From Marnyiella aurantia (lineage in GTDB: Bacteria > Bacteroidota > Bacteroidia > Flavobacteriales > Weeksellaceae), in NCBI RefSeq assembly GCF_014041915.1, contig NZ_CP059472.1, forward strand, positions 2,480,001 to 2,544,000: 64,000 nt of DNA. The letters are read 5' to 3'. Below, piece after piece: positions 45,430-58,663 of the stretch. The notes beneath the pieces were generated by a model that had not been told where the DNA came from, ran no database searches, and saw only the letters and a program-made list of their open reading frames with translations. The position numbers and the translations under genes were made by a program. The number at the start of each line of letters is the position of its first letter. The first letter of the stretch is position 1.

Positions 45430-46488
45430 ATGAAAAAAATGCAGCTTACAAACGAAATCATGTACCAGGCTTCAGTGGATAAAGATCCTGACTTCGAAGG
45501 AGTTTTCTGGATGGGTGTGAAGACCACCGGCATTTTTTGCCGGCCCACCTGCCGTGCCCGAAAGCCAAGACCGGAAAATGTGGAGTTCTTCCACAGTACG
45601 CATGAAGCGCTGAACAATGGCTACCGTCCCTGTAAGGTCTGTAAACCTCTGGAAAACCCGGACAAAACTCCGGTCGGCATCATCGGACTACTTCAGGAAC
45701 TTGCGAACGATCCATCAGTTAAAATTACAGACCGCGATTTATCTGCCCGAGGGCTGGAGCCCGTGGCCGTACGCAGGTGGTTTACAAAACACCAGGGAAT
45801 GACTTTTCAGGCTTTCCAGCGTATGCTAAAGCTGAATTCCGCATTTAAGAAACTGCAGCAGGGCAGCACCGTGATGGATAGCGCCTATGAAAGTGGCTTT
45901 GCAAGTTTGAGCGGTTTCAGTGAAGGCTTCAGAAATGTTTTCGGTAATTCGCCTGCGGGTGCGAAGCAGCAAAAAATCATTGACCTGAAAAGAATTAAGA
46001 CACCCGTGGGAAGCATGTACGCCGCTGCGGTTGAGGCAGGTATCTGTATGCTTGAGTTTGGCGACCGCTCCACGCTGGAATCCACACTTACCAAAATAGC
46101 TACTGCGCTGAACGGCAGGGTGGTGCCGGGAAATAATCCCCACTTTGACTTGCTTGAGAGGGAGTTGGCAGAATACTTTAACTGCAGTAGAAAAGTCTTT
46201 ACAGTGCCGCTTTCGCCTATAGGCACAGATTTCCAGAAAAAGGTTTGGGAGGTTCTGCGTCAGATCCCTTATGGAGAGACCTGGACTTACAGCCGTCAGG
46301 CCGCGCTTTTGGGTGATGTAAAGAAGGTGCGTGCCGTGGCAAATGCCAATGGCTTTAACCGGATTTCAATCATCATTCCCTGTCACCGGGTAATCGGAAG
46401 CAACGGTACCCTTACAGGTTATGGAGGCGGCGTATGGCGCAAGCAGAAACTTCTTGAACTTGAAAGAAATGCGAAAAGTAATTTATAA
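45430..46488 (+). CDS. ada: Ada: methyltransferase and AraC-type regulator of alkylation repair
   Basis: A 352-residue adaptive-response protein. Domain 1 (1-80) carries the zinc/methyl-acceptor Cys set at residues 37, 41, 68 and 71 (FCRPTC; RPCKVC), matching E. coli Ada. Domain 2 is an AraC-type HTH (about 85-175). Domain 3 has the O6-methylguanine methyltransferase active site IIPCHRVIG. A TAGTTTTG element ends 9 bases before the start. By family, methylation of Cys37 would convert it to an activator of repair genes, probably including itself. AlkB is encoded separately at 11924. Confidence 0.93.
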   Translation: MKKMQLTNEIMYQASVDKDPDFEGVFWMGVKTTGIFCRPTCRARKPRPENVEFFHSTHEALNNGYRPCKVCKPLENPDKTPVGIIGLLQELANDPSVKITDRDLSARGLEPVAVRRWFTKHQGMTFQAFQRMLKLNSAFKKLQQGSTVMDSAYESGFASLSGFSEGFRNVFGNSPAGAKQQKIIDLKRIKTPVGSMYAAAVEAGICMLEFGDRSTLESTLTKIATALNGRVVPGNNPHFDLLERELAEYFNCSRKVFTVPLSPIGTDFQKKVWEVLRQIPYGETWTYSRQAALLGDVKKVRAVANANGFNRISIIIPCHRVIGSNGTLTGYGGGVWRKQKLLELERNAKSNL

Positions 46489-46561
46489 GATGCTTTGAAG
46501 CAGGCAACAGGATTGTTAACAATAAGAAAATGTATTTTCTGCTTAAAGGTGGGCACTGTAA

Positions 46562-46996
46562 TTAAAATTCAAACTGATAAAACTCGTAACCGCTGGCTGA
46601 GAACCGCGCACATATATGCTGCAGTCCGTTTGTAAGGATTATTTCAGGAGCACCGATTACAGAATTATAGCGCGCTGTCTGTTCAAATGTTTTTTCGGTG
46701 AGCGCTATGGACGGCGCTTTACATTCAATCAGGATTTTTGGAGCGGTTTTCTCCGTAACAAGCAGGTCTATACGCTTTGTAAGTCCATGCAGAACCAGCT
46801 TCTTTTCTGATATTAATGCCGATGCTGAATAGCCCTTGGTACTGAGGAAATAATGAATCCAGTGCTGCCGTACCCATTCCTCAGGAGTAAGCAGCAGGTA
46901 GCTTTTCCGGGTGAGGTCATAAATAAATAAGTTATCTTTGTCTTTCCTGAAACGGAAGTTAAAGTTTTCCCGAAAATTAAGTTTTGGCAGTTGCAA
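46562..46996 (-). CDS. HsdR N-terminal domain (PD-(D/E)xK) stand-alone protein
   Basis: A 144-residue protein with the type I restriction HsdR N-terminal (HSDR_N_2) fold: LLTPEEWVRQHWIHYFL, then the nuclease core GLTKRIDLLV and ILIECKAPSIALTEKTFEQ, with the D and E-x-K catalytic residues. It has no helicase domain and no hsdM or hsdS neighbour, so it is not a restriction enzyme as such. Homologues next to holA are common in Bacteroidota; a role in repair or RNA handling is possible but unproven. The first available start is TTG; no ATG lies in frame between it and an upstream stop. The gene is head-to-head with holA, 6 bases apart. Confidence 0.75.
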   Translation of the reverse strand: MQLPKLNFRENFNFRFRKDKDNLFIYDLTRKSYLLLTPEEWVRQHWIHYFLSTKGYSASALISEKKLVLHGLTKRIDLLVTEKTAPKILIECKAPSIALTEKTFEQTARYNSVIGAPEIILTNGLQHICARFSASGYEFYQFEF

Positions 46997-47002
46997 GCTG
47001 GT

Positions 47003-48040
47003 ATGAAAGATTTAGAATTATTGCTCAAAAATATTAAAAATAAAGCACTTCTTCCCGTCTATTTTTTACATGGTGGGGAGTCTTATTATATTGATATAGC
47101 TGTAAAAAGTCTGGAAAACGATGTCCTAACTGAGGATGAGAAATCCTTTGGGCAAACTGTTCTGTACGGTAAGGATACCAGTATTCCCGAAATTATTTCC
47201 CTGGCGCAGCAATTTCCGATGTTTGGCGAGTTGAACCTTATCATTGTAAAAGAAGCTCAAGACTTGAAATTGGGTGAAGATGAGCTTAAATCTCTGGAGT
47301 TCTATGTTGAAAACCCTGTTCCTACAACTGTTTTGGTCTTTGCTCACAAACATAAAAAGCTGGACAGCCGTAAGAAAATAACAAAGATCCTCACCAAAAA
47401 CAACTGGATTTTTCTTAGTGAGCCAGTAAAAGACTATCAGCTGGCGAAGTGGATTGCAGACGAATGTAAAGCCAATCAAATAAAAACGGCACCCAATATC
47501 TCTCACCTGCTGGCAGATTATCTTGGGAATGACCTTTCACGCATCGCCAATGAACTGGGCAAACTGAAAATGGTAATGAAGGAAGGGCAGGAGTTAGATG
47601 AAAAGCTTGTGGAAACTCATATTGGGATCAGCAAGGACTTCAACGTCTTCGAACTTCAGAAAGCTTTAGGCAACAAAAACCACGCAGCCGCCCTCAGGAT
47701 TGCCTTCTTTATGGGAAAAAGTCCCAAGACCAATCCCTTCCCTATGATTATTGGGAACCTGTACAATTATTTTTCGAACATCATTATTTATCACACCATG
47801 CATGGACAGAGTCCGCAGGTTATGGCCGCTGCTATGAATGTGAATCCCTACTTTATAAAGGATTTTGCTGAATCCGCGCGCTTCTATCCTCTGAAACATG
47901 CCACCAGAATCATTTCCCTGCTACGCGAAGCCGACCTTAAGAACAAGGGCTTGGGTGCCAACCAAATAGATGATGCCGAGCTGCTTAGAGAACTTACCTA
48001 CAAAATCCTTAATGTAGACCGGTTGAAGGTTAGTGTTTGA
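47003..48040 (+). CDS. holA: DNA polymerase III delta subunit
   Basis: Opens the DnaN clamp within the clamp loader. The 345-residue protein has the HolA pattern: a degenerate AAA+ N-terminal domain (LLPVYFLHGGESYYIDIAVKSL), the clamp-contact and central block EDELKSLEFYVENPVPTTVLVF, the NDLSRIANELGKL segment and the alpha-helical collar end (AELLRELTYKILNVDRL). The ATG at 47003 is used rather than a TTG four codons earlier, which would overlap the divergent HsdR_N-type gene. Confidence 0.9.
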   Translation: MKDLELLLKNIKNKALLPVYFLHGGESYYIDIAVKSLENDVLTEDEKSFGQTVLYGKDTSIPEIISLAQQFPMFGELNLIIVKEAQDLKLGEDELKSLEFYVENPVPTTVLVFAHKHKKLDSRKKITKILTKNNWIFLSEPVKDYQLAKWIADECKANQIKTAPNISHLLADYLGNDLSRIANELGKLKMVMKEGQELDEKLVETHIGISKDFNVFELQKALGNKNHAAALRIAFFMGKSPKTNPFPMIIGNLYNYFSNIIIYHTMHGQSPQVMAAAMNVNPYFIKDFAESARFYPLKHATRIISLLREADLKNKGLGANQIDDAELLRELTYKILNVDRLKVSV

Positions 48041-48130
48041 TCTAACCTTAAAGACTCTTTAGAGGGTAGGGTACTAAGGGCGTGAGGTTAAATTTTGAAT
48101 TTATTATTTGAATTGCCCCGCCGGCCGCGT

Positions 48131-48182
48131 TGGCCGCCATGTGCAAGGCCGTTATGAAGAAACTTTATTTTTTAATCACCTT
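48131..48182. repeat. 52-bp unit at T9SS gene ends, copy 1
   Basis: Identical over 52 bases to 50120-50171 and 52124-52175. It covers the last five codons (minus strand, KVIKK) and stop of each T9SS gene and the following spacer. Confidence 0.9.
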
Positions 48183-50063
48183 GCCGGTAAGGGCACCTTT
48201 TTCGGTTTCAACCTTTACCATATAGGTGCCTGTGGCCAACTGACTCATATTTATCCTGTTGCTGCCACGGCTGAAAGCTCCTTTACTTACAATCTGTCCC
48301 GTCATGCCGTAGATCTCCCAGGATTTTGGGGTGTCTTTGGTGCTTACCTGCACTTCATCCTGCGTTGGATTGGGGTAGAAGGAAATATGGTTGTCCAGTT
48401 CGGTTTCGTTTGTCGACATGGCGCTGCATGCAGATTTTGCAAGCTTGGCAACGTAAAACTGGGACTTGCCGTTTGCGTTATAGGAAATGGTGGGGATATT
48501 GTCATTGGGATCAGTGAAAATCTCGGAATGGAAATAGCCTCCTACTACATAGTTCCCGTCATTATCCACCGCCACGGAGGTCAGTTCATCTGCAGTACCG
48601 TACCCGCTCAATATAGGATGCAGGCCTACGGCATTACCTGTATCTTTGTTCAGTCTTACAAGCAGCGAGTTGGGTTGGTCATTTTGCGGACTCGTTATAG
48701 AAAAACTGTCCCAGATCTCATTGCTCCGAGTACCTTTTACAAAGGCGATTTCGTTACCATTTAAGGCAATGCGGGCTCTCATGGAACGTGTTCCTGAATA
48801 CTCAGTCGCAGAACTGCCTGGCACCTTTGTCCATAGTACATTTCCTAATGGATCTATTTTCATAACAAAATTAATATCAGTACCCTGTGTAGCAGGCAGG
48901 GTGTAATTTCCAAAGGTCGCGGCTGGTGTCCCACCCTGAGTGTACCTGCCTGAAATGTAGATATTTGAAGAAGAGTCTTTTATGAGAGAATATATTTTTT
49001 CATCAGGAAAAGGATTAGCGGAACCTGAACTATAGGTCGAAAATTCCTTTCGCCAGGCTACGTCCCCGGTGGTTCCGTCAATTGCCAGCACATAACCGTC
49101 ATTAGAAAGTGGGATACTGTTATAACTTAAAGGAAGATAATCCTGAAATGTGGTACTGGTACTACCTGCCAGATAGTAGCGGTTTAAATTTTCATCATAA
49201 AGAAACTGAACTTTGCCTCCAAGAAAGCCGGATTCAAAATTCCCTGTAATGGGCAATAACAGTGGGTTAGGCTGGGGAATCATATTCACAACATTACCTG
49301 TGCCGCTGCTATAGTTAAATTTTACAAGATAGTATTGGTAGCTAGTGGTAAAAGAACTGGGTACGGTAATTAAGCCTCCTAAATGCGTTCCCGCCTCAAA
49401 TCCTAAAATAGCATGGATATTATAGGAGTTGTCCATGGTCCACACCCCATTATCACCTCTGTCGGTTAGCCATGATACTCCCAAAGAATTCTGCAATGGT
49501 TTTTCCCAGGCTAATGTACCGTCTGCTGTATTATATTTCAGTAAGAAAATTTTATTCAATCCCGGGTCAAGGGTTGTCGTATCAGAATAATCCACAGTGA
49601 TGGGCGGTCTGGCATGGGTGGGGTCCCACCGAATAGGCAATATGGTTGGAGCAGTGATGTGGGCCTGATTCGTTACATTAGTCATCATATATAATCCTCC
49701 GTTATTATCAACTTCCAAGTTCCATGCATACTCGCTTGTGCCATATCCCCCAATCGTCTGACTCCAGCGTAAATTCCCCTGACAGTCCAGTGAGAATAGG
49801 AGAAGATCCTTTGAATGATAAGAGGTTACAGCAGTACCGTTAATATTTGGATTCTGTGGATATATAGCGGTAAGATGGTAGGAGTTATTATTATGATCCA
49901 CTACCACATCGCGAATCATCTCGTCTCTGGTTTCGTAAAACCCGGATCCACCCCCTGATCCTGTATCGCCGCCCCCGGCTTTGGCCCACTGCCATTGGTA
50001 GGTTTGGGCAGTCGCAAAGGTGGTTAAGGTGGTACAGAGTAAAAGGTAAAGTTTCTTTTTCAT
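48165..50063 (-). CDS. Secreted T9SS type A sorting-domain protein, copy A of a tandem pair
   Basis: A 632-residue exported protein: signal peptide (MKKKLYLLLCTTLTTFATAQ), a long beta-rich region of the delta-60/SBBP-type repeat kind (blocks such as DLLLFSLDCQGNLRWSQTIGGYG and SLIKDSSSNIYISGRYTQGG), and a C-terminal type A T9SS sorting domain ISFYPNPTQDEVQVS ... GTYMVKVETEKGALTGKVIKK. The sorting domain sends it across the outer membrane by PorU-dependent T9SS. It is highly similar to its upstream neighbour, copy B, pointing to tandem duplication. The start at 50063 gives a standard signal peptide. The ligand or function is unknown. Confidence 0.85.
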   Translation of the reverse strand: MKKKLYLLLCTTLTTFATAQTYQWQWAKAGGGDTGSGGGSGFYETRDEMIRDVVVDHNNNSYHLTAIYPQNPNINGTAVTSYHSKDLLLFSLDCQGNLRWSQTIGGYGTSEYAWNLEVDNNGGLYMMTNVTNQAHITAPTILPIRWDPTHARPPITVDYSDTTTLDPGLNKIFLLKYNTADGTLAWEKPLQNSLGVSWLTDRGDNGVWTMDNSYNIHAILGFEAGTHLGGLITVPSSFTTSYQYYLVKFNYSSGTGNVVNMIPQPNPLLLPITGNFESGFLGGKVQFLYDENLNRYYLAGSTSTTFQDYLPLSYNSIPLSNDGYVLAIDGTTGDVAWRKEFSTYSSGSANPFPDEKIYSLIKDSSSNIYISGRYTQGGTPAATFGNYTLPATQGTDINFVMKIDPLGNVLWTKVPGSSATEYSGTRSMRARIALNGNEIAFVKGTRSNEIWDSFSITSPQNDQPNSLLVRLNKDTGNAVGLHPILSGYGTADELTSVAVDNDGNYVVGGYFHSEIFTDPNDNIPTISYNANGKSQFYVAKLAKSACSAMSTNETELDNHISFYPNPTQDEVQVSTKDTPKSWEIYGMTGQIVSKGAFSRGSNRINMSQLATGTYMVKVETEKGALTGKVIKK

Positions 50064-50171
50064 ATTGTTTATTTTTTTAATGCATTCTTCACTACCTCCC
50101 CGCAGTCCGGCGGACGCTTTGGCCGCCATGTGCAAGGCCGTTATGAAGAAACTTTATTTTTTAATCACCTT
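50061..50171. repeat. 111-bp unit around the T9SS gene junction, copy 2
   Basis: Spans the start codon of copy A, the intergenic spacer and the stop of copy B. It differs from 52065-52175 at one base (50114 A versus 52118 C). Its 52-base core is repeated a third time at 48131-48182. Confidence 0.9.
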
Positions 50172-52067
50172 GCCGGTAAGGGTACCTTTTTCGGTTTCTA
50201 CCTTTACCATATAAGTGCCTGTGGCCAACTGACTCATGTTTATCCGGTTGCTGCCACGGCTGAAGGCTCCTTTACTTACGATTTGTCCCGTCATGCCGTA
50301 GATCTCCCAGGATTTTGGGGTGTCTTTGGTGCTAACCTGCACTTCATCCTGTGTGGGATTGGGGTAGAAGGAAATATGGCTGTCCAGTTCTGTTTCGGTA
50401 GTAGCCATGGCGCTGCAGGCCGATTTGGCCAGCTTGGCTACGTAAAACTGGGAGCGGGTACTGGACCCATATGAGATAGTGGGGATATTATCATTGGGAT
50501 CAGTGAAAATATCCGTTTTAAAATAGCCTCCTACCACATAGTTCCCGTCATTATCTACCGCTACGGAGGTAAGTTCGTCATCAGTTCCGTAACCGCTTAA
50601 TATGGGGTTCAGGCCTAAGGCGTTACCAGTGTCCTTGTTCAGTCTTACAAGCAGCGAGTTGGCCTGGTCATTAACCGGGTTGGTAACGGTAAATGAATCC
50701 CATGTCTCAATACTTCGGGTGCCCTTTACAAAGGCGATCTCATTACCGTTTAAGGCGATTCTGGCTCTCATAGAGCGGGTGCCAAAAAAATTGGTATTGG
50801 ACGAGGTGGGTGCTTTTACCCACTGTACCGCACCCAAAGGGTTCAGTTTCATCACAAAATTAATATTGGTTAGGGCGCCTGGCGGATTGGTGGGCAGTGT
50901 ATAACTGTAACCGGGACCGGATAAAGTAGGAGCCGGATCCCCATTTGTATATCTCCCTGAGAGATAAAGGGATCCATCAGAATCTTTTATCAGGGAATAT
51001 ATTTTCTCATCTGGCGACTGATTTGCGGTCCCCCCAATGAACGTGGTAAACTCGCGGCGCCAAAATACGTCCCCCGTGGTTCCGTCAATTGCCAGCACGT
51101 AACCGTCATTTGAAAGGGGTGTGCCATTGTAATCGAGAGGTAGATAATCCTGAAATGATACGCTGGTACTTCCTGCCAGATAGTAGCGGTTTAAAGTTTC
51201 ATCATAAAGAAATTGAACTTTGCCTCCGGCAACGCCGGACTCTAAATTTCCTGTAATGGGCAATAACAGTGGGTTAGGCTGCGGAATCATATTCACAACA
51301 TTACCTGTGCCGATGCTATAGTTAAATTTTACAAGATAGTATTGGTAGGTAGTGGTAAAAGAACTGGGTACGGTAATTAATCCTCCTAAATGGGTGCCCG
51401 CCTCAAAACCCAAAATAGCATGGATATTATAGGAGTTGTCCATGGTCCACACCCCATTATCACCCCTATCGGTGGATCGTGATACGCCCAGTGGATTCTG
51501 CAATGGTTTTTCCCAATCCAAGGTTCCGTCGGCAGTGTTGTACCTTAACAAGAAAATTTTGTTTAACCCCGGGTCAGGCGTTGTCGTGTCCGAATAATCC
51601 ACACTGGAAAGTGGCCGGGCATGGTTGGGGTCCCATCGGACAGGCAATATGGTTGGAGCGGTAATGTGCGCTTGATTCGTTACATGAGCCATCATGTATA
51701 ATCCTCCGTTATTGTCAACCTCTAGATTCCATGCATGCTCACTGTCATTATAACCTCCGATCGTCTGACTCCAGCGCAGATTCCCCTGGCAGTCCAGAGA
51801 GAATAGGAGAAGATCCTTTGAATGATAAGAGGTTATAGTACTGCCATTAATATTGGGATTCTGCGGATAGATCGTGGTGAGATAATAGGAATTATTATTA
51901 TTGTCCACCACCACATCGCGGATCATCTCGTCCCGGGTTTCAGCAAATATTATTGCAGACGACCCTGTATCGCCGCCCCCTGCTTTGGCCCACTGCCATT
52001 GGTAGGTTTGGGCATAGGAAAAGGTGAGCAGGGTGGTACAGAGTAATAAGTAAAGTTTGTTTTTCAT
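50154..52067 (-). CDS. Secreted T9SS type A sorting-domain protein, copy B
   Basis: A 637-residue paralogue of the neighbour at 48165: same signal peptide type (MKNKLYLLLCTTLLTFSYAQ), the same beta-repeat body and a near-identical sorting domain. Differences cluster in the middle (around 50900-51250), where short insertions and many substitutions appear, as expected if one copy is diverging after duplication. It would be secreted by T9SS. The spacers before and after are copies of one unit. Confidence 0.85.
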   Translation of the reverse strand: MKNKLYLLLCTTLLTFSYAQTYQWQWAKAGGGDTGSSAIIFAETRDEMIRDVVVDNNNNSYYLTTIYPQNPNINGSTITSYHSKDLLLFSLDCQGNLRWSQTIGGYNDSEHAWNLEVDNNGGLYMMAHVTNQAHITAPTILPVRWDPNHARPLSSVDYSDTTTPDPGLNKIFLLRYNTADGTLDWEKPLQNPLGVSRSTDRGDNGVWTMDNSYNIHAILGFEAGTHLGGLITVPSSFTTTYQYYLVKFNYSIGTGNVVNMIPQPNPLLLPITGNLESGVAGGKVQFLYDETLNRYYLAGSTSVSFQDYLPLDYNGTPLSNDGYVLAIDGTTGDVFWRREFTTFIGGTANQSPDEKIYSLIKDSDGSLYLSGRYTNGDPAPTLSGPGYSYTLPTNPPGALTNINFVMKLNPLGAVQWVKAPTSSNTNFFGTRSMRARIALNGNEIAFVKGTRSIETWDSFTVTNPVNDQANSLLVRLNKDTGNALGLNPILSGYGTDDELTSVAVDNDGNYVVGGYFKTDIFTDPNDNIPTISYGSSTRSQFYVAKLAKSACSAMATTETELDSHISFYPNPTQDEVQVSTKDTPKSWEIYGMTGQIVSKGAFSRGSNRINMSQLATGTYMVKVETEKGTLTGKVIKK

Positions 52068-52175
52068 ATTGTTTATTTTTTTAATGCATTCTTCACTACC
52101 TCCCCGCAGTCCGGCGGCCGCTTTGGCCGCCATGTGCAAGGCCGTTATGAAGAAACTTTATTTTTTAATCACCTT
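52065..52175. repeat. 111-bp unit around the T9SS gene junction, copy 3
   Basis: Near-identical to copy 2 (one difference). Contains a perfect hairpin GGCGGCC-GCTTT-GGCCGCC at 52113-52131 that copy 2 has lost by the A at 50114. Possibly a terminator without a T run. Confidence 0.9.
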
Positions 52176-53480
52176 TTCAGTTACCGCACTACCGTCTTCA
52201 AATTGAATAGTTAGGACGTAAACTCCCTTCGGTAGAAATGAAATATCCATCTTCTTGGAAATGCCCTTAATAACTAATTTACCAGTTAAATCAACCAATG
52301 CTGTGCTTTTTATATTGTTTTTTGACACTATATTTAATTCCCCTGATGTTGGGTTTGGGTGAATCCCGACCAATGTAGAATTTACTTCCAGCGTATTTAA
52401 TCCCGCGAGGTTCATTTTGAAAAGCATAGCAGTGTTTGTTGCCACATTGAATCCTCCCGAATAGCATATTCCCACACTATAGCACCTCAAAAACGAATGA
52501 CGAACATTGGGGTCAATCGCATTCCATGTGTTTCCATTATCGGTAGATATCCATGATCCATGGGCGTTGGGATCATTACCATAATATTGACCTGTAGCCA
52601 ATAATATATCTGTACCCGGAACATAAGAAATATCCGTTATCCAGGATAAAGGCAGACCTGAAAATGGAATGGCAGACCATGTTTGACCACCATCAGTAGT
52701 TCTATGCATCTGCATCGTTGGATATCCGGAAAGTTGCGTTTGGTCAACAAGGACAGCTTTATTGGTGTCACTCCATGCCATTAAGCATTGTCTCCCCGGA
52801 AATGAAGCAGGAAGAGCCGACCAAGTTATTCCCAAGTCGGTTGATTTAATAATTCTTTGCCTGAAGCCTGCTCCTGCAAGGAAATACTCTTCAATAAAAT
52901 AAAACACTCCGTCTACAAAACTAATCCATGGCCTTGCAAGACCAGTAGTATGAGGACTGCTACTATCCGGCAGAAGGCTCCATGTAGCTCCACCATCCAC
53001 GGTGCGGTATATTCTGTACCTGTAATTAAAACCCACAGGATTTCCTATAGCTATACCCGTATCCGAATTGAAAAAATAAAGGATACTTGCGCCGCCGGGG
53101 GCCAAGTTCAGTTGATGAAGCCATGTATTTCCTCCATCAGAGGTTTTCCAGACATCATATAAATTTGAACCATGCAACGTTAATACCCACGCAGTCGTTT
53201 CGTTTACACTGGTGAGCGCACTAACATTCCAATTATACTGGCCGTAGGTTGCTGTGATATCATTGGTATTTCCCATGGTCCAGTTACTGCCCCCATCTGT
53301 AGTTATTGCAAACTGTTTAGGTGTGTTACTGGAGTAGGCCCAAAAATTATCTGCACTATTCAAAGAAAGAACATCGAGGGATCTATTGGGTGCAAAAGGT
53401 TGAGGCATTGAAACCCATGATTGCGAAAATGCGTTCCCAGACAGTAAAACAGTAATAAAGAATGTAAATATTTTTCTCAT
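52158..53480 (-). CDS. Secreted Asp-box (BNR) repeat protein with T9SS type A sorting domain
   Basis: A 440-residue protein with signal peptide (MRKIFTFFITVLLSGNAFSQ), at least five Asp-box repeats (TTDGGSNWTM, TSDGGNTWLHQ, TVDGGATWSLL, STDLGITWSAL, TTDGGQTWSAI, STDNGNTWNAI; consensus S/T-x-D-x-G-x-T-W) forming a sialidase-like or Ycf48-like propeller, and a C-terminal sorting domain (VGIHPNPTSGELNIVS ... VYVLTIQFEDGSAVTEKVIKK). No sialidase catalytic arginines are seen, so it probably binds rather than cuts. It lies upstream of the pair A and B and shares their 3' unit. Confidence 0.83.
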   Translation of the reverse strand: MRKIFTFFITVLLSGNAFSQSWVSMPQPFAPNRSLDVLSLNSADNFWAYSSNTPKQFAITTDGGSNWTMGNTNDITATYGQYNWNVSALTSVNETTAWVLTLHGSNLYDVWKTSDGGNTWLHQLNLAPGGASILYFFNSDTGIAIGNPVGFNYRYRIYRTVDGGATWSLLPDSSSPHTTGLARPWISFVDGVFYFIEEYFLAGAGFRQRIIKSTDLGITWSALPASFPGRQCLMAWSDTNKAVLVDQTQLSGYPTMQMHRTTDGGQTWSAIPFSGLPLSWITDISYVPGTDILLATGQYYGNDPNAHGSWISTDNGNTWNAIDPNVRHSFLRCYSVGICYSGGFNVATNTAMLFKMNLAGLNTLEVNSTLVGIHPNPTSGELNIVSKNNIKSTALVDLTGKLVIKGISKKMDISFLPKGVYVLTIQFEDGSAVTEKVIKK

Positions 53481-53636
53481 AATTTAAATTTTAGGTTTTT
53501 TCCACTTAAATCAACTTTTGTAAATCAATGCAGGTAAAGTATTGTTCGGAACTAAAATTGAACCTTTTTCTTGTGCTATTTTTTGTAAAGCCGTTCCAGG
53601 AAGACACACAACAAGAGCCATCTCCGTAAAATTACG

Positions 53637-53644
53637 TAGTTTTG
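53637..53644 (+). promoter_or_regulatory. -7 promoter element (TAGTTTTG) for the PAS-LuxR gene
   Basis: TAGTTTTG fits TAnnTTTG and leaves a leader of about 45 bases before the ATG at 53695. Confidence 0.45.
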
Positions 53645-53656
53645 GGTACCACCGTC

Positions 53657-53672
53657 CTACCCTTTCGGGTAG
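53657..53672 (+). promoter_or_regulatory. Inverted repeat in the leader of the PAS-LuxR gene
   Basis: CTACCC-TTTC-GGGTAG, a perfect 6-bp arm repeat, followed by another TTTTACCC at 53673-53680, and preceded by GGGTACC at 53644-53650. The clustered ACCC/GGGT words just after the promoter suggest an operator, perhaps for autoregulation, or a leader hairpin. Confidence 0.4.
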
Positions 53673-53694
53673 TTTTACCCTAAAAAGCCCACAA

Positions 53695-54459
53695 ATGATG
53701 CACCCCAAAACCGAAGATTTCTTTATTCCCCAAAACACAGTTACCCGCCTAAGCGAAGAAGAAGCCGCACAGTCGCTTAATTTTCTGCAGGTTATAAAAG
53801 CCGTAGAGAATACCACCTACCAAAGCATGTATGTTATTGATTACCTGAAAAAAGGTTTTGATTATGTGTCGGATAACCGCCTGTTCCTGTGCGGGCACAC
53901 GCCGGAGGAATTTGTGGCCATGGGCTATGATTTCTATATGAAACACGTGCCGCAGGAAGACCTGGAACTGCTGCTGAAAATAAATGAGGCCGGCTTTAAA
54001 TTCTACGAAAAAACGCCTCTGGAAGAGCGCCGGCACTACTCCATAACCTACGATTTTCACCTGATTATGGGCGACAACCGGAAAGTCCTGGTTAACCATA
54101 AATACACGCCGCTGTTCCTGACCAACGAAGGGCAGATCTGGAAAGCGCTCTGCCTCTTTTCGCTGTCCAACAAGAGCAGCGCGGGCAATGTGCAGATACA
54201 GCGTCAGGGCAGCAACATGATTTGGGTGTACAATGAGGCAGAAGACGGTTGGGAAAGCAGGGAAAAGGTGTGCCTGACCAGCAGGGAGACCGAAATTCTG
54301 GTGTTTGCCTCGCAGGGCCTTTCGGTAAGTGAAATCGCCGCGAAAATGTGTGTTACTTCGGACACCGTAAAATTTCACCACAAGAACCTTTTTGAAAAAC
54401 TGGAGGTGGTCAATATTTCGCAGGCCGTGGCGGTGGCAACAAGTTATAAGCTGGTTTAG
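53695..54459 (+). CDS. PAS-like sensor with LuxR-type HTH regulator
   Basis: A 254-residue regulator. Residues 25-165 look like a PAS-fold (GFDYVSDNRLFLCGHTPEEFVAMGYDFYMKHVPQEDL and SITYDFHLIMGDNRKVLVNHKYTPLFL split across strands), residues 190-254 form a LuxR/GerE HTH with SRETEILVFASQGLSVSEIAAKM and VKFHHKNLFEKL. No membrane span. Divergent from the T9SS genes (213 bases between starts), so it is a candidate regulator of them, which is inference. ATG at 53695 or 53698 are equally good. Confidence 0.85.
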   Translation: MMHPKTEDFFIPQNTVTRLSEEEAAQSLNFLQVIKAVENTTYQSMYVIDYLKKGFDYVSDNRLFLCGHTPEEFVAMGYDFYMKHVPQEDLELLLKINEAGFKFYEKTPLEERRHYSITYDFHLIMGDNRKVLVNHKYTPLFLTNEGQIWKALCLFSLSNKSSAGNVQIQRQGSNMIWVYNEAEDGWESREKVCLTSRETEILVFASQGLSVSEIAAKMCVTSDTVKFHHKNLFEKLEVVNISQAVAVATSYKLV

Positions 54460-55712
54460 AGAGGGGCAGAAGCAAGAGTCAGGGAGAGAGCTATGAAGCA
54501 AGAGCCAAGAGCCAAGAATCAAGATTTCAGATGGCAGATGCTGGATTTTGGATTTTGTGCGCGCTGGGGTTAAAGTATACGAGTATATGACCGCATTTCA
54601 CAAATATGCGCGCAGATTCAGACACTTAAATTCTGTGCCCTCCGGGTCCCCTGTGGTTACAACAGAAGCAAGATTTCAAATTTTAAATTTTAAATTGTGG
54701 ATCTTTTGTTTTTCCACGTTAAGATAGAATCTCTTTTCCGTACACTTTGGCGAAAACCTCCGTGCCCGCTGTGGTTATAATAGACGCAAGATGCGGGATT
54801 TCAGATTTCAGACTTGCGTTTTTACGACCTCACGACTTTCAAACCTTGGTGCTCTTTGCCACAACAGCAGGAACCGACATTGATCTGGAGTTGCTGATCG
54901 GTCACTCTAAGCTTACCAAATAGATTATTGTAATTTCCGCTGCTTTCGCATACGTTTAGGTGAAAAGTTTAATAATTATAGAAAATATTTGCTTGGTTTT
55001 CAAGAATTTATTACTTTTATTTCTAATGCAGACTTCAAAAGACAAAAATGCCAAAACATTTAGAAATTTGCATATTTTAACTCATTAATTTCTTCCCAGC
55101 CCCTTTATCTAAAGACGTCCCCGACCTTCCACCGTAGTTGCAGTATACATACCCGCCGGATACTTCACAGATAAGTCGGGGCCTCTCCGGGTATACATTG
55201 GTCTTACGTCTATAGTATACCAGCTATAACCAACTGGGCCAAATATCTGACCTCTGCCGTGCGCACTTGCGCATCAACCACTGCATATCAGGCGTGTGTT
55301 CTAAACCTTGACACGGCTCTCAGTACCGACCATGAGTTTGCCAACTAGCTCCTGCGGTTAGCATGTTGTTAAGACTGTTATGTAAATTTGGTTTTACATT
55401 CCTTATTCCTCTTATAAACTCGCCCTTCATCTTGACCAATCCTAAAAAACGACGAAGGAGTTTCGCCAATAGCACAAAAAAAATAAACATATACTGGCAA
55501 AGATCCAAGTCTTGAATCCTTCGCAGAAGGATCGCCGATTCCATTAAAATTATAAAAAAGCTGAGGCAAAAAAGTAACGTATGAACCTATCTTGGGAATT
55601 GACACTGCCTCACTTTTTCCTTTTTCGTTTCCTCTGTTCTCTTTGCTCTTTCGGCTCCTCCAACCACACAGGCAAACTTTTTGTACTTCGTATTTTTCCA
55701 AATACAAATATT
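54460..55712. other. Gene-free gap with decayed and unexplained sequence
   Basis: About 1.25 kb without a credible gene. 54470-54810 is low-complexity repeat text of the 0.4-1.1 kb family, with the inverted counterpart (54753-54776) of 781-804. 54852-54923 is an integrase remnant. 55100-55380 is noticeably richer in GC, with several GTATAC words (55142, 55191, 55213) and short inverted repeats. 55378-55620 on the minus strand has two overlapping open frames that read in a protein-like way, but with no start context and an apparent frame change near 55380. A hairpin ATCCTTC-GCA-GAAGGAT is at 55516-55532. I assign no function. Confidence 0.5.
54852..54923 (+). pseudogene. Tyrosine recombinase (integrase) C-terminal remnant
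   Basis: This 24-codon stretch reads LFATTAGTDIDLELLIGHSK and then LTK-stop. It resembles box II of tyrosine recombinases, (R)H-FAT-L-AGTDI---LLGHSK--T, with the catalytic H/K region compressed; upstream and downstream nothing else of an integrase remains. A small fossil, suggesting an element was once here. Chance similarity cannot be excluded. Confidence 0.4.
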
Positions 55713-55904
55713 ATGGCCGATAATAAATCTAAAACAGGGAAGCAGGACCGTAACAAGGTAAACGGTTCAGAGAACTACGAGATTCAGTACTTTAAAGAGA
55801 AAATGGGCGTAAGTTCACAGGCAGTAACCGGTGCCATCCGCGCAACCGGATCTAACGACAGAAAAGTTCTGGAAGACTACCTTAAAAAGCGTCACAGCAA
55901 ATAA
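55713..55904 (+). CDS. DUF3606 domain protein
   Basis: A 63-residue soluble protein with the DUF3606 pattern: N-terminal polar segment ADNKSKTGKQDRNKVN, then EIQYFKEKMGVSSQAVTGAIRATGSNDRKVLEDYL, a helix-turn-helix-like layout. Function unknown. The ATG at 55713 is chosen over a frame extending far upstream into gap sequence. It lies 71 bases before ligD on the same strand, so a shared transcript is plausible. Confidence 0.78.
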   Translation: MADNKSKTGKQDRNKVNGSENYEIQYFKEKMGVSSQAVTGAIRATGSNDRKVLEDYLKKRHSK

Positions 55905-55975
55905 TGGTAAAACTCTCCTTATACCCCGTCAATTATTTGGTGGGGTTGTTCATGTTTCACTTTTAAATCACAATT

Positions 55976-58663
55976 ATGGCACTGGAAGAATACCGCAAAA
56001 AACGCTCGAAAGAAAAGACACCTGAACCCTTCGGTGGGAAATCAACCGCAAGGGAACTACGGTTTGTGGTTCAGAAACACGATGCCTCACATCTGCATTA
56101 CGACTTCCGGCTGGAAATGGACGGAGTGCTTAAAAGTTGGGCAGTACCAAAAGGACCCTCAATGGATCCGTCTGTTAAGCGTCTTGCCATGATGGTGGAA
56201 GATCACCCTTTTGATTACCGCAATTTTGAAGGTGCTATTCCCAAAGGACAGTATGGCGGCGGCACAGTTATCGTGTGGGACGAGGGAGCTTACCTTCCTT
56301 CAGAACCGGAAAAAAGCCGTAAGAAACAGGAGCAGCAACTGTTGGAACAACTGAAAGCGGGAAAAATTAAATTCTCACTTAACGGCACTAAACTGAAGGG
56401 CGAATTTGCCTTAGTAAAAGCGCATGGCCGTGGCGACAACGGTTGGCTGCTGATGAAACTAAAGGATAAATATGCCGACACTGAAGATATTACACTAAAG
56501 GACCGTTCCGTACTTTCTGATAAAACCATAGCCGAAATGGAAGAATCCCCGGTGGAGGTGTACGGTCAGAAGAAAGCAAAAAAAACAAAAACTGAAGCTA
56601 AGACAACCTCCAAAACTTCAAAAACGAAAACTGCCGGGACCGAAAAGAATAAACCAGCGGTAAAGAAGCGGGAAGAATCTGTGGAAAAACTAATGTCAAA
56701 AGCACCGAAGCAGGCTTTTTATACGGAAGTCGCGCCAATGCTTGCCACTTTGGTAGATAAACCCTTCGACAGTGACGAATGGCTGTACGAAATTAAATGG
56801 GATGGTTACCGTGCTGTGGCCTTTATGAATGAGGGTGATGTAACCCTGAAATCCCGTAACAATAAGAGTTTCAGCGAAAAATTTTATCCTGTTCAGCAGG
56901 AACTCTCCAAACTTAAACTGGATGCTGTGCTGGACGGTGAAATCGTGGTTCTGGATAAAGACGGTAAAGCAGCCTTCGGTAAACTGCAGAACTGGCGCAG
57001 CGAATCCGACGGCGAACTGGTTTACTATGTCTTCGACCTGCTTTGGTACCAGGGCAGGGATCTCAAAGAACTTCCGCTGACCGACAGGCGCGCAATTCTT
57101 TCACAAATTTTGCCAAAATCAGACATAATTATGCTGAGTCAGGAATTTCATACCTCCGGAATTGAATTTCTGGAAGCAGCCCGGAATATGGACCTGGAAG
57201 GCATTATGGCGAAGCGTAAGGACAGCGTTTATCAAACAAAAAACCGAACGAAAGACTGGCTGAAAATTAAAGCCAATAAAAGGCAGGAGGTTGTAATAGG
57301 GGGCTTTACAATAAATGATGATACAAAAAAGGCGTTCAGCAGTTTGTTGGTAGGTGTTTACGACAATAAAAAACTCATATACAGTGGGAAGGTGGGCACA
57401 GGATTCAATACAAAGATGCAGAAGGACATGATGGAACTCTTCAAACCGCTGATTACAGATAAGCATCCCTTTACGGAAGAACCTGATGTAAACAAACCTT
57501 CGCGCTTCCGCCATAACCCGCCTAACGCTACGGTAACCTGGCTGAAACCTAAACTAATCTGTGAGGTTAACTATACCGAACTGACATCGGACGGAATTAT
57601 GCGTCACCCTTCGTTTAAGGGAATGCGGTCCGATAAAAAGCCGGCGCAGGTAGTTCTGGAACAGGAAAAACCGCTGCAGGAAGTGGTGCCAGAAGCTGAA
57701 CCTCTGGTTACTGCAAGAAAAGATCCGGGCCGGAAGACACTCCTGAATCCTACAGAAAAAAGTCAGGTAAAAAAAGTTAATGGTCACGAACTGAAATTCA
57801 CTAACCTGGATAAAATTTTCTGGCCGGACGAAAAACTGGAAAAGCGGGACCTCATCAATTATTATTATCGCGCCGCACCGTTCATTTTGCCGTATCTGAA
57901 AGACAGACCGCAAAGTATGAACCGCTACCCGGACGGGATAGAAGGGGAAGGATTTTATTATAAGGATGTTTCCGGCAGTGCCCCTTCCTGGGTCAAAACA
58001 TTCGATTATACCAGCGATTCCGATAAACGTGCCCGAAAGTATCTTGTAGGGACGGATGAAGCAGCACTGCTTTATATGGCTAATCTTGGCTGCATAGAAA
58101 TGAATCCCTGGAATTCCACAGTGAAGAAACCTTATAATCCTACCTTCTGCATACTTGATCTGGACCCGGATATAAACTCTTTCAATGATGTAATTGAAAC
58201 AGCTCAGGTAACGCGGCAACTGCTGGATGACCTGGATGTTCCTTCATACTGCAAAACCAGCGGTTCCACAGGACTTCATATTTACATTCCGCTTAATAAC
58301 AAGTACACGTATGAACAGTCTAAGGAATTTGCACGTATTCTTGTAAAACTGGTTCAGGCGGAACTTCCTGAACTTACGAGTATCGAACGCATAATTAAAA
58401 AGCGGGAAGGAAAGATTTATCTCGATTTTCTGCAGAACCGCCCACACGCTACCATTGCAGCACCCTATTCGCTGCGGCCAAAACCCGGAGCCACCGTTTC
58501 TATGCCATTGCACTGGGACGAAGTAAAGAAAGGTTTGAAGATGAAGGACTTTACCATATTCAATGCGCTGGAGCGAATGGAAAGTGAAGGCGATATCTTC
58601 AAACCCGTATTAGGCAAAGGAATTAATCTGAAAAAGGTACTTAAGAAACTGGAAGGGCTATAG
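55976..58663 (+). CDS. ligD: DNA ligase D (3'-phosphoesterase, ATP ligase and polymerase fused)
   Basis: The multi-domain enzyme of bacterial non-homologous end joining. The 895-residue chain runs: 3'-phosphoesterase (1-190; HYDFRLEMDGVLKSWAVPKGPS, HPFDYRNFEGAIPKGQYGGG), a Lys-rich linker (about 195-235), ATP-dependent ligase (245-560; nucleophile Lys274 in YEIKWDGYR), and a polymerase/primase domain (600-895; INYYYRAAPFILPYL, LDLDPDINSF, HIYIPL). The order PE-Lig-Pol differs from Mycobacterium (Pol-PE-Lig) and matches the Pseudomonas type. No ku gene is in the window. The upstream DUF3606 gene may be co-expressed. Confidence 0.95.
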   Translation: MALEEYRKKRSKEKTPEPFGGKSTARELRFVVQKHDASHLHYDFRLEMDGVLKSWAVPKGPSMDPSVKRLAMMVEDHPFDYRNFEGAIPKGQYGGGTVIVWDEGAYLPSEPEKSRKKQEQQLLEQLKAGKIKFSLNGTKLKGEFALVKAHGRGDNGWLLMKLKDKYADTEDITLKDRSVLSDKTIAEMEESPVEVYGQKKAKKTKTEAKTTSKTSKTKTAGTEKNKPAVKKREESVEKLMSKAPKQAFYTEVAPMLATLVDKPFDSDEWLYEIKWDGYRAVAFMNEGDVTLKSRNNKSFSEKFYPVQQELSKLKLDAVLDGEIVVLDKDGKAAFGKLQNWRSESDGELVYYVFDLLWYQGRDLKELPLTDRRAILSQILPKSDIIMLSQEFHTSGIEFLEAARNMDLEGIMAKRKDSVYQTKNRTKDWLKIKANKRQEVVIGGFTINDDTKKAFSSLLVGVYDNKKLIYSGKVGTGFNTKMQKDMMELFKPLITDKHPFTEEPDVNKPSRFRHNPPNATVTWLKPKLICEVNYTELTSDGIMRHPSFKGMRSDKKPAQVVLEQEKPLQEVVPEAEPLVTARKDPGRKTLLNPTEKSQVKKVNGHELKFTNLDKIFWPDEKLEKRDLINYYYRAAPFILPYLKDRPQSMNRYPDGIEGEGFYYKDVSGSAPSWVKTFDYTSDSDKRARKYLVGTDEAALLYMANLGCIEMNPWNSTVKKPYNPTFCILDLDPDINSFNDVIETAQVTRQLLDDLDVPSYCKTSGSTGLHIYIPLNNKYTYEQSKEFARILVKLVQAELPELTSIERIIKKREGKIYLDFLQNRPHATIAAPYSLRPKPGATVSMPLHWDEVKKGLKMKDFTIFNALERMESEGDIFKPVLGKGINLKKVLKKLEGL

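Follow-up and report, generated by a model that had tools for sequence, protein, structure and literature searches.

A mosaic, recombining family of predicted type IX secretion cargo genes in Marnyiella aurantia and the tail it shares with an unrelated neighbour

In Tannerella forsythia, the genes of the KLIKK proteases form a cluster of type IX secretion system (T9SS) cargo drawn from different protease families, and the proteins have virtually identical C-terminal domains ending in K-L-I-K-K, as set out in excerpts of PMC4404884, whose authors regard the shared domain as unusual, propose that it arose recently and from a common source, with existing genes becoming fused to the shared ends, and leave that origin open. 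The sister taxon BU063 was first reported without the KLIKK set, a view revised in the relevant passages of PMC7014623, which find homologues of mirolase and karilysin. In Porphyromonas gingivalis, the excerpted text of PMC5266723 relates Kgp, RgpA and HagA to domain rearrangement and allelic exchange, with variants that depart from the strain phylogeny, and gene conversion and concerted evolution among duplicate genes of prokaryotes are the subject of PMC6053082. Here we analyse an array of three tandem genes of Marnyiella aurantia, which we call A, B and C, all on the minus strand of a 64,000-nt stretch of contig NZ_CP059472.1 (positions 2,480,001 to 2,544,000; “the window” hereafter means this whole stretch), and whose 3′ ends carry an identical 53-bp unit. 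Our overall reading, to which we give a probability of roughly 0.7, is that B, C and their relatives form a family that evolves by recombination and whose arrays differ in presence between sister species, that the shared tail is the family’s own, and that A probably acquired this tail by a join.

The host genome (G000) is a single contig of 2.61 Mb and was compared within a genus of four genomes, the others being that of the sister species (G001), G002 and G003; all species comparisons involve one genome per species. The named relatives of the host are Chryseobacterium, which places it in Weeksellaceae, the bacterial family surveyed below. The array elements are:

52158..53480, minus strand: gene A, 440 amino acids, with a Sortilin-Vps10/BNR (Asp-box) body and a T9SS type A sorting domain at residues 373-438 (translation, Pfam, NCBIfam TIGR04183)
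50154..52067, minus strand: gene B, 637 amino acids, with a T9SS type A sorting domain (translation, Pfam, NCBIfam)
48165..50063, minus strand: gene C, 632 amino acids, a paralogue of B (84% at the amino acid level), with a predicted propeller-like body and a sorting domain (Pfam, structure model)
52123..52175, minus strand: 53-bp unit after gene A, comprising the last 18 coding bases including the stop, and spacer
50119..50171, minus strand: 53-bp unit after gene B
48130..48182, minus strand: 53-bp unit after gene C
52060..52175, minus strand: first copy of a 116-bp repeat, covering the A end, the entire A-B spacer and the first B codons, with one difference from 50056-50171
50056..50171, minus strand: second copy of the 116-bp repeat, covering the B end, the entire B-C spacer and the first C codons
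50154..50399, minus strand: sorting-domain coding region of B, last 82 codons including the stop
48165..48410, minus strand: sorting-domain coding region of C, last 82 codons including the stop

All three products are predicted T9SS type A cargo: in A, B and C the sorting domain scores 41.3, 52.8 and 51.5 bits with PF18962 (cut-off 27) and 36.7, 53.8 and 50.9 with TIGR04183 (cut-off 23), so that the first-pass annotation of this DNA was right to speak of three tandem T9SS genes. Every unit consists of AAG GTG ATT AAA AAA TAA (KVIKK and stop) followed by spacer. The same annotation had reported an identical 52-mer at the three gene ends, covering these codons and the spacer, and a longer likeness of two copies over 111 bp with one difference; the identity is exact and extends one base further, and the longer repeat holds at 116 bp. 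The copies at 48130 and 50119 agree exactly over 64 bp, the longest exact repeat, against 14-17 bp in 20 dinucleotide shuffles of the window, and the stop plus spacer is identical at 92/93 positions between A-B and B-C.

The resemblance between B and C is uneven. Their sorting-domain coding regions are 94.2% identical in nucleotides and their bodies 79.1%, and the mismatches cluster in patches, their number per 99 sites ranging from 3 to 44, with a windowed variance of 125 against a permutation maximum of 36, or 37.8 against 19.6 when third positions are taken. The sister species has no copy of the window array and holds four relatives of B and C in two other arrays, L034 and L035, which lie about 410 kb apart, together with remnants. 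Among these four genes (L034a, L034b, L035a and L035b) identity switches along the alignment: L034a and L035b are 46-85% identical in DNA before column 1020, 88-100% from 1020 to 1740 and 40-57% in the sorting domain, and L034b and L035a are 74-100% identical in columns 60-1020, 44-65% in 1020-1440, 72-97% in 1440-1740 and 38-59% in the sorting domain. The partners in the sorting domain are different ones, L035a going with L035b, B and C, and L034a with L034b; the exchange points fall within coding sequence, at about columns 1020 and 1700. In a home-made version of Sawyer’s test, uncorrected for multiple tests, the longest shared polymorphic runs lay above all 2000 permutations in 8/15 pairs at all sites and in 5/15 at third positions, the run of B/L035b reaching 90 against a permutation maximum of 22.

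Trees of separate segments, built from the family genes and, in addition, three C. lacus copies, are in strong conflict with one another. In the sorting domain, B, C, L035a and L035b are united at 100/100, and the groupings L034b+L035a and L034a+L035b are rejected by the approximately unbiased test (p-AU 8e-60 and 4e-72, respectively); in the 5′ body, L034b and L035a are united at 100/100 and it is the grouping of B, C, L035a and L035b that is rejected (p-AU 1e-43). L034b+L035a and L034a+L035b are each a supported clade in one body segment. The B/C family is a recombining mosaic family, in which body segments and a sorting domain of about 80 residues have separate histories, and the earlier claim that sorting-domain ends recombine holds for this family on account of the identity switches, the run permutations and the conflicting segment trees. 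The process is homologous recombination (gene conversion, unequal exchange and probably transfer between lineages), acting within tandem arrays and between arrays as far apart as L034 and L035.

Exchange may have crossed the species boundary as well. B and L035b, which belong to different species and different loci, have sorting domains 98.4% identical in DNA and bodies 66.2% identical (L034a, with its in-frame stop, was left out of the body nucleotide and fourfold values). At fourfold sites of the sorting domain, 32/35 agree, compared with 1023/1684 in nine backbone gene pairs, which range singly from 44 to 80% (Fisher 6e-5, for a closest cross-species pair that was chosen after seeing it and with sites treated as independent). 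Without amounting to proof, this identity suggests that exchange took place after the two species had separated, or that there was transfer. Two types of sorting domain, about 52% identical in DNA, serve the B/C family in one genome. As a separate observation, the family gene of the sister species at L034:8666-10546 has an in-frame TGA at codon 428 and is perhaps a decaying copy.

The tail shared by the three genes contains a GC-rich hairpin:

52111..52133, minus strand: hairpin core ATGGCGGCCAAAGCGGCCGCCGG after gene A, about 22 bp; two more copies, at 50107-50129 and 48118-48140, deviate from the pattern by one and two mismatches, respectively

That the unit is a general cassette boundary, as the first-pass annotation had proposed, is not borne out by its distribution. 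A 28-bp piece of it, with up to 3 mismatches allowed, occurs nowhere in the host genome beyond the three array ends, the exact 18-mer AAGGTGATTAAAAAATAA, which stands for KVIKK and the stop, is found in the host only at A, B and C, and three genes of another host array have other codons for the KVIKK end. Matches to the hairpin core occur in 5/320 genomes of the bacterial family, namely at 4 places in the host (the fourth being G000:C1:1011779-1011805), at 5 places in the sister species and as one three-mismatch match in each of three genomes, and these three single matches are not above control, since the same table holds six control matches. Only the host and the sister species exceed the control rate (2/320), so that, within this set of 320, the tail is confined to a pair of congeneric species. 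Its nine places comprise the ends of A, B, C, L034a, L035a and L035b, two remnants in the sister species and a lone host site; after L034b, the fourth gene of the sister species, 376 other bases stand between the stop and the next tail. Judged by where it is found, the 53-bp unit is the B/C family’s own stop-and-spacer tail and not a dispersed cassette boundary, and it travels with the gene, following, besides A, B and C, three genes and two remnants of the sister species. The 376-nt stretch after the L034b stop (L034:6318-6693) has a 72% relative over 285 columns, L036:7402-7631, which follows a gene remnant; in each of these cases, both from the sister species, a KVIKK stop precedes the stretch and a hairpin tail follows it.

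Several other identities were considered for the tail. A dispersed repeat was rejected because the host holds only three copies of the unit (up to 3 mismatches) and four hairpin cores, and a terminator was rejected too, none of the nine terminator-like sites lying on the tails and nine being close to the shuffle mean of 9.6. Positions 46000-56000 gave no Rfam match at gathering scores, and the window contains no tRNA that could be a target. The hairpin after gene A folds strongly (z -3.5, 0/200 shuffles) and those in the four other sequences tried are weaker (z -0.9 to -2.1). These values fall short of establishing that an RNA structure is conserved; the hairpin is probably a structure of the 3′ RNA end or of its processing, or else a mere hitch-hiker.

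Gene A stands apart from its neighbours. Pfam recognises Sortilin-Vps10, BNR and Por_Secre_tail in A and Por_Secre_tail only in B and C, which agrees with the earlier statement that the body of the third gene is not paralogous to the others. At E<=1e-10 nothing in G001, G002 or G003 matches A, and of 40 genomes searched (its own included) three contain full-length relatives, at 32-33% identity. The DNA of A meets the common tail within its last codons, the sorting domain upstream of the join being its own, and all that A has in common with B and C is the final 18 bases of coding sequence plus the spacer. Sharing of the KLIKK type (a near-identical sorting domain on unlike bodies) is accordingly absent between A and B/C, and of the earlier proposal that sorting-domain ends are homogenised, the part concerning the B/C family stands and the part concerning A falls, since A received terminal codons and spacer and no sorting domain. 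Most likely A obtained its tail through a join at the KVIKK codons, for example when a deletion took out a third member of the family that stood between A and B. An exchange or deletion would have joined the KVIKK codons of A to those of this third gene, once upstream of B, and the same event would have taken away the body of the third gene together with the tail that A had of its own.

The genes beside the array allow the locus to be compared between the two species:

46991..48040, plus strand: conserved flank gene on the 3′ side of the array, which we take to be holA-like
53698..54459, plus strand: flank gene for a LuxR-family (GerE) regulator, divergent from gene A

Flanks were compared between host and sister species at two loci, the holA-like locus and the L034 locus, and at both the presence of a whole array differs between the species. 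At the holA-like locus of the sister species, the window array and the LuxR neighbour are missing and the flanks match at 85% and 83% around a different 1.2-kb stretch, the homology beside the 3′ side of the array ending at about 48114. At the place in the host that corresponds to L034, the array of about 4.5 kb is missing, and flanks matching at 88% and 92% meet at one base position. The earlier suggestion that secreted-protein genes are gained and lost is upheld in so far as arrays are present in one sister species and absent from the other at the two loci; for the direction of change, we can only infer it. The host site that is without the L034 array holds the lone hairpin core, changed on both sides of one pair (GGTGGCC/GGCCACC versus GGCGGCC/GGCCGCC) and without a match in G002 and G003. 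Since every other occurrence of the core is at the end of a family gene, of A or of a remnant, and those two genomes lack a counterpart, this lone hairpin may be read as the scar of a lost array, although the opposite order would fit too. A search with the large neighbour gene of L035, the only gene of that surrounding to be searched, yielded no match in the host, G002 or G003.

Relatives of B and C are absent from G002 and G003 at E<=1e-20 and occur at E<=1e-80 in 55/320 genomes of the bacterial family, three candidates having been scored per genome. A structure model of C, built with 17 family sequences (predicted local distance difference test, pLDDT, 81.9), has as its best PDB match the propeller CylK (template-modelling score 0.46, 18% identity), which suggests a propeller-like fold and not a function. 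At L066, L067, L068, L069, L071 and L075 (Chryseobacterium and a relative), family genes stand after a large gene of 1621-1662 amino acids, whose PKD and sorting domains Pfam confirmed in the case of L066 alone; the L035 array stands after a gene of 1343 amino acids with PKD, Ig-like and sorting domains, and in the window the place of the large leading gene is occupied by gene A.

A second array of the host, at G000:C1:761005-787767 (L156, L157), comprises nine tandem genes of 695-1224 amino acids with T9SS-type ends and diverse bodies, the sorting domains being confirmed by Pfam in genes 1 and 4, the two scanned, and assigned by similarity in the other seven. Genes 2-9 are 50-89% identical in amino acids over their last 80 residues, and gene 1 is 28-37% identical to the rest. 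Among the 28 pairs of genes 2-9, bodies match in 18 and show no match at E<1e-3 in 10, and those 10 pairs share 50-79% over the last 80 residues, so sorting-domain sharing among unlike bodies recurs in the host. Similarity to gene 3 starts about 200-250 bases before the stop (somewhat earlier in gene 2, with little in gene 1) and ends sharply at the stop. In C. lacus, copies have bodies 64-75% and domains 83-89% identical. In view of these copies and of the three-gene arrays of the same family in the Chryseobacterium species C. ureilyticum and C. artocarpi, the recombination process depends on the lineage.

Several observations weigh against the overall reading, beginning with these very arrays, which match gene by gene between C. 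ureilyticum and C. artocarpi (92-96% for bodies and for domains alike), the copies within one array being 68-72% identical in bodies and 74-78% in domains; no concerted evolution is seen in them and their ends are without marked homogenisation. The spacers of the second host array are not shared. In the 3′ body, holding L034b and L035a together is not rejected (p-AU 0.121), nor is B+C in the sorting domain (p-AU 0.26), and the mosaic genes of the sister species are known from assembled sequence alone. Beside the post hoc choice of the pair B/L035b, fourfold agreement is 26/32 for C/L035b and 22/35 for B/L035a, the latter being at backbone level. The acquisition of the tail by A rests on one junction, with no intermediate found. 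Finally, the A-B spacer and the L034a-b spacer of the sister species are identical at 89/92 positions with 3 gap columns, against 92/93 within the host, and some of the likeness of the spacers may thus reflect constraint; as to concerted evolution of tandem copies, host and sister species have no corresponding array in common at the two loci.

One alternative is plain tandem duplication, by which A-B-C would have arisen from a B-like unit including its tail and then diverged in the ordinary way, the likeness of the tails being descent plus constraint. B and C are indeed tandem paralogues with matching spacers, and the spacer is well conserved in the sister species; nevertheless, A has the tail though it is no paralogue, the mismatches between B and C are patchy, with a windowed variance above permutations, and segment trees conflict among family members, and we hold duplication as the whole explanation to be quite unlikely. 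Still less probable is a model of site-specific cassettes, in which each gene with its tail would be mobilised by a recombinase or in the manner of an integron, the hairpin being the recombination site. The layout of gene plus tail would suit it, as would the hairpins at array edges, the end of homology with the sister species beside the gene C hairpin and the paired change in the core at the host site without the L034 array. Yet neither strand of the 121-bp stretch 52060-52180 contains the attC boxes RYYYAAC/GTTRRRY, whose absence also tells against the general cassette boundary of the first-pass annotation, exchange points lie inside coding sequence, the hairpin exceeds control in so few genomes, and there is no recombinase domain among the few neighbours scanned with Pfam, most neighbours lying outside the scan. 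Just as improbable is selection alone, by which secretion and RNA 3′ ends would demand the exact sequence of tail and sorting domain: sorting domains are functional signals, and the spacer, free of coding constraint, is conserved across species, but two dissimilar domain types serve the same family in one genome, near-identical body segments carry different types, identity extends to fourfold sites, and three other host genes encode the same protein end in other codons.

Recombination within a family that owns its tail is therefore the reading we retain. Beyond it, one may speculate, with little confidence, that the 3′ end of a T9SS gene acts as a portable secretion tag, such that genes nearby or newly arrived turn into surface cargo, or remain so, through recombination with the 3′ end of a cargo gene already in place; the join could fall at any point between the start of the sorting domain and the last codons, and the hairpin would favour breakage or mark the join. 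If this is true, arrays would serve as workshops where a proven export signal is joined to new bodies. Much of what many Bacteroidota display and secrete is T9SS cargo, and if sorting domains move by recombination, protein trees would mislead, cargo lists would change fast and the export signal would be an exchangeable part. The family is in this sense a modest, well-supported example of bacteria reshuffling what they display outside the cell.

Two further features of the window lie close to the array. A small gene at 46562-46996, which adjoins the holA-like gene, has an HSDR_N_2 domain (the N-terminal domain of type I restriction enzyme R subunits), and the intergenic stretch 54515-54826 contains three diverged 45-bp direct repeats, 60-71% identical to the reference copy.

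In the literature, judged by titles and the openings of abstracts, we found no account of T9SS sorting domains being exchanged from one array to another in this group, a weak negative in view of the thin coverage of subscription journals. With respect to duplicated prokaryotic genes in general, the patchy identity among copies is as in PMC6053082, whereas here exchange also links arrays far apart on the chromosome and a gene that is no paralogue has the tail. The likeness to P. gingivalis, as far as the excerpts of PMC5266723 go, is that T9SS-exported surface proteins are diversified by modular domain exchange and recombination; the modules there are adhesin and catalytic variants compared among strains, and here they are the bodies and the sorting domain of propeller-like proteins, compared between two species. 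The closest precedent is that of the KLIKK proteases, with clustered T9SS genes, unlike bodies and common ends. In the excerpts on T. forsythia it is a whole domain of 86 residues that is common to unrelated bodies, whereas in gene A it is the last codons and the spacer only, and in this respect the second array of the host, with its 10/28 pairs alike at their ends and without a body match, is a closer match than the window array. The passages on T. forsythia give no segment trees, no exchange between loci and no tail hairpin; the conflicting segment trees between dispersed arrays described here suggest a concrete process by which a pattern of the KLIKK type, whose origin was left open in PMC4404884, could arise.

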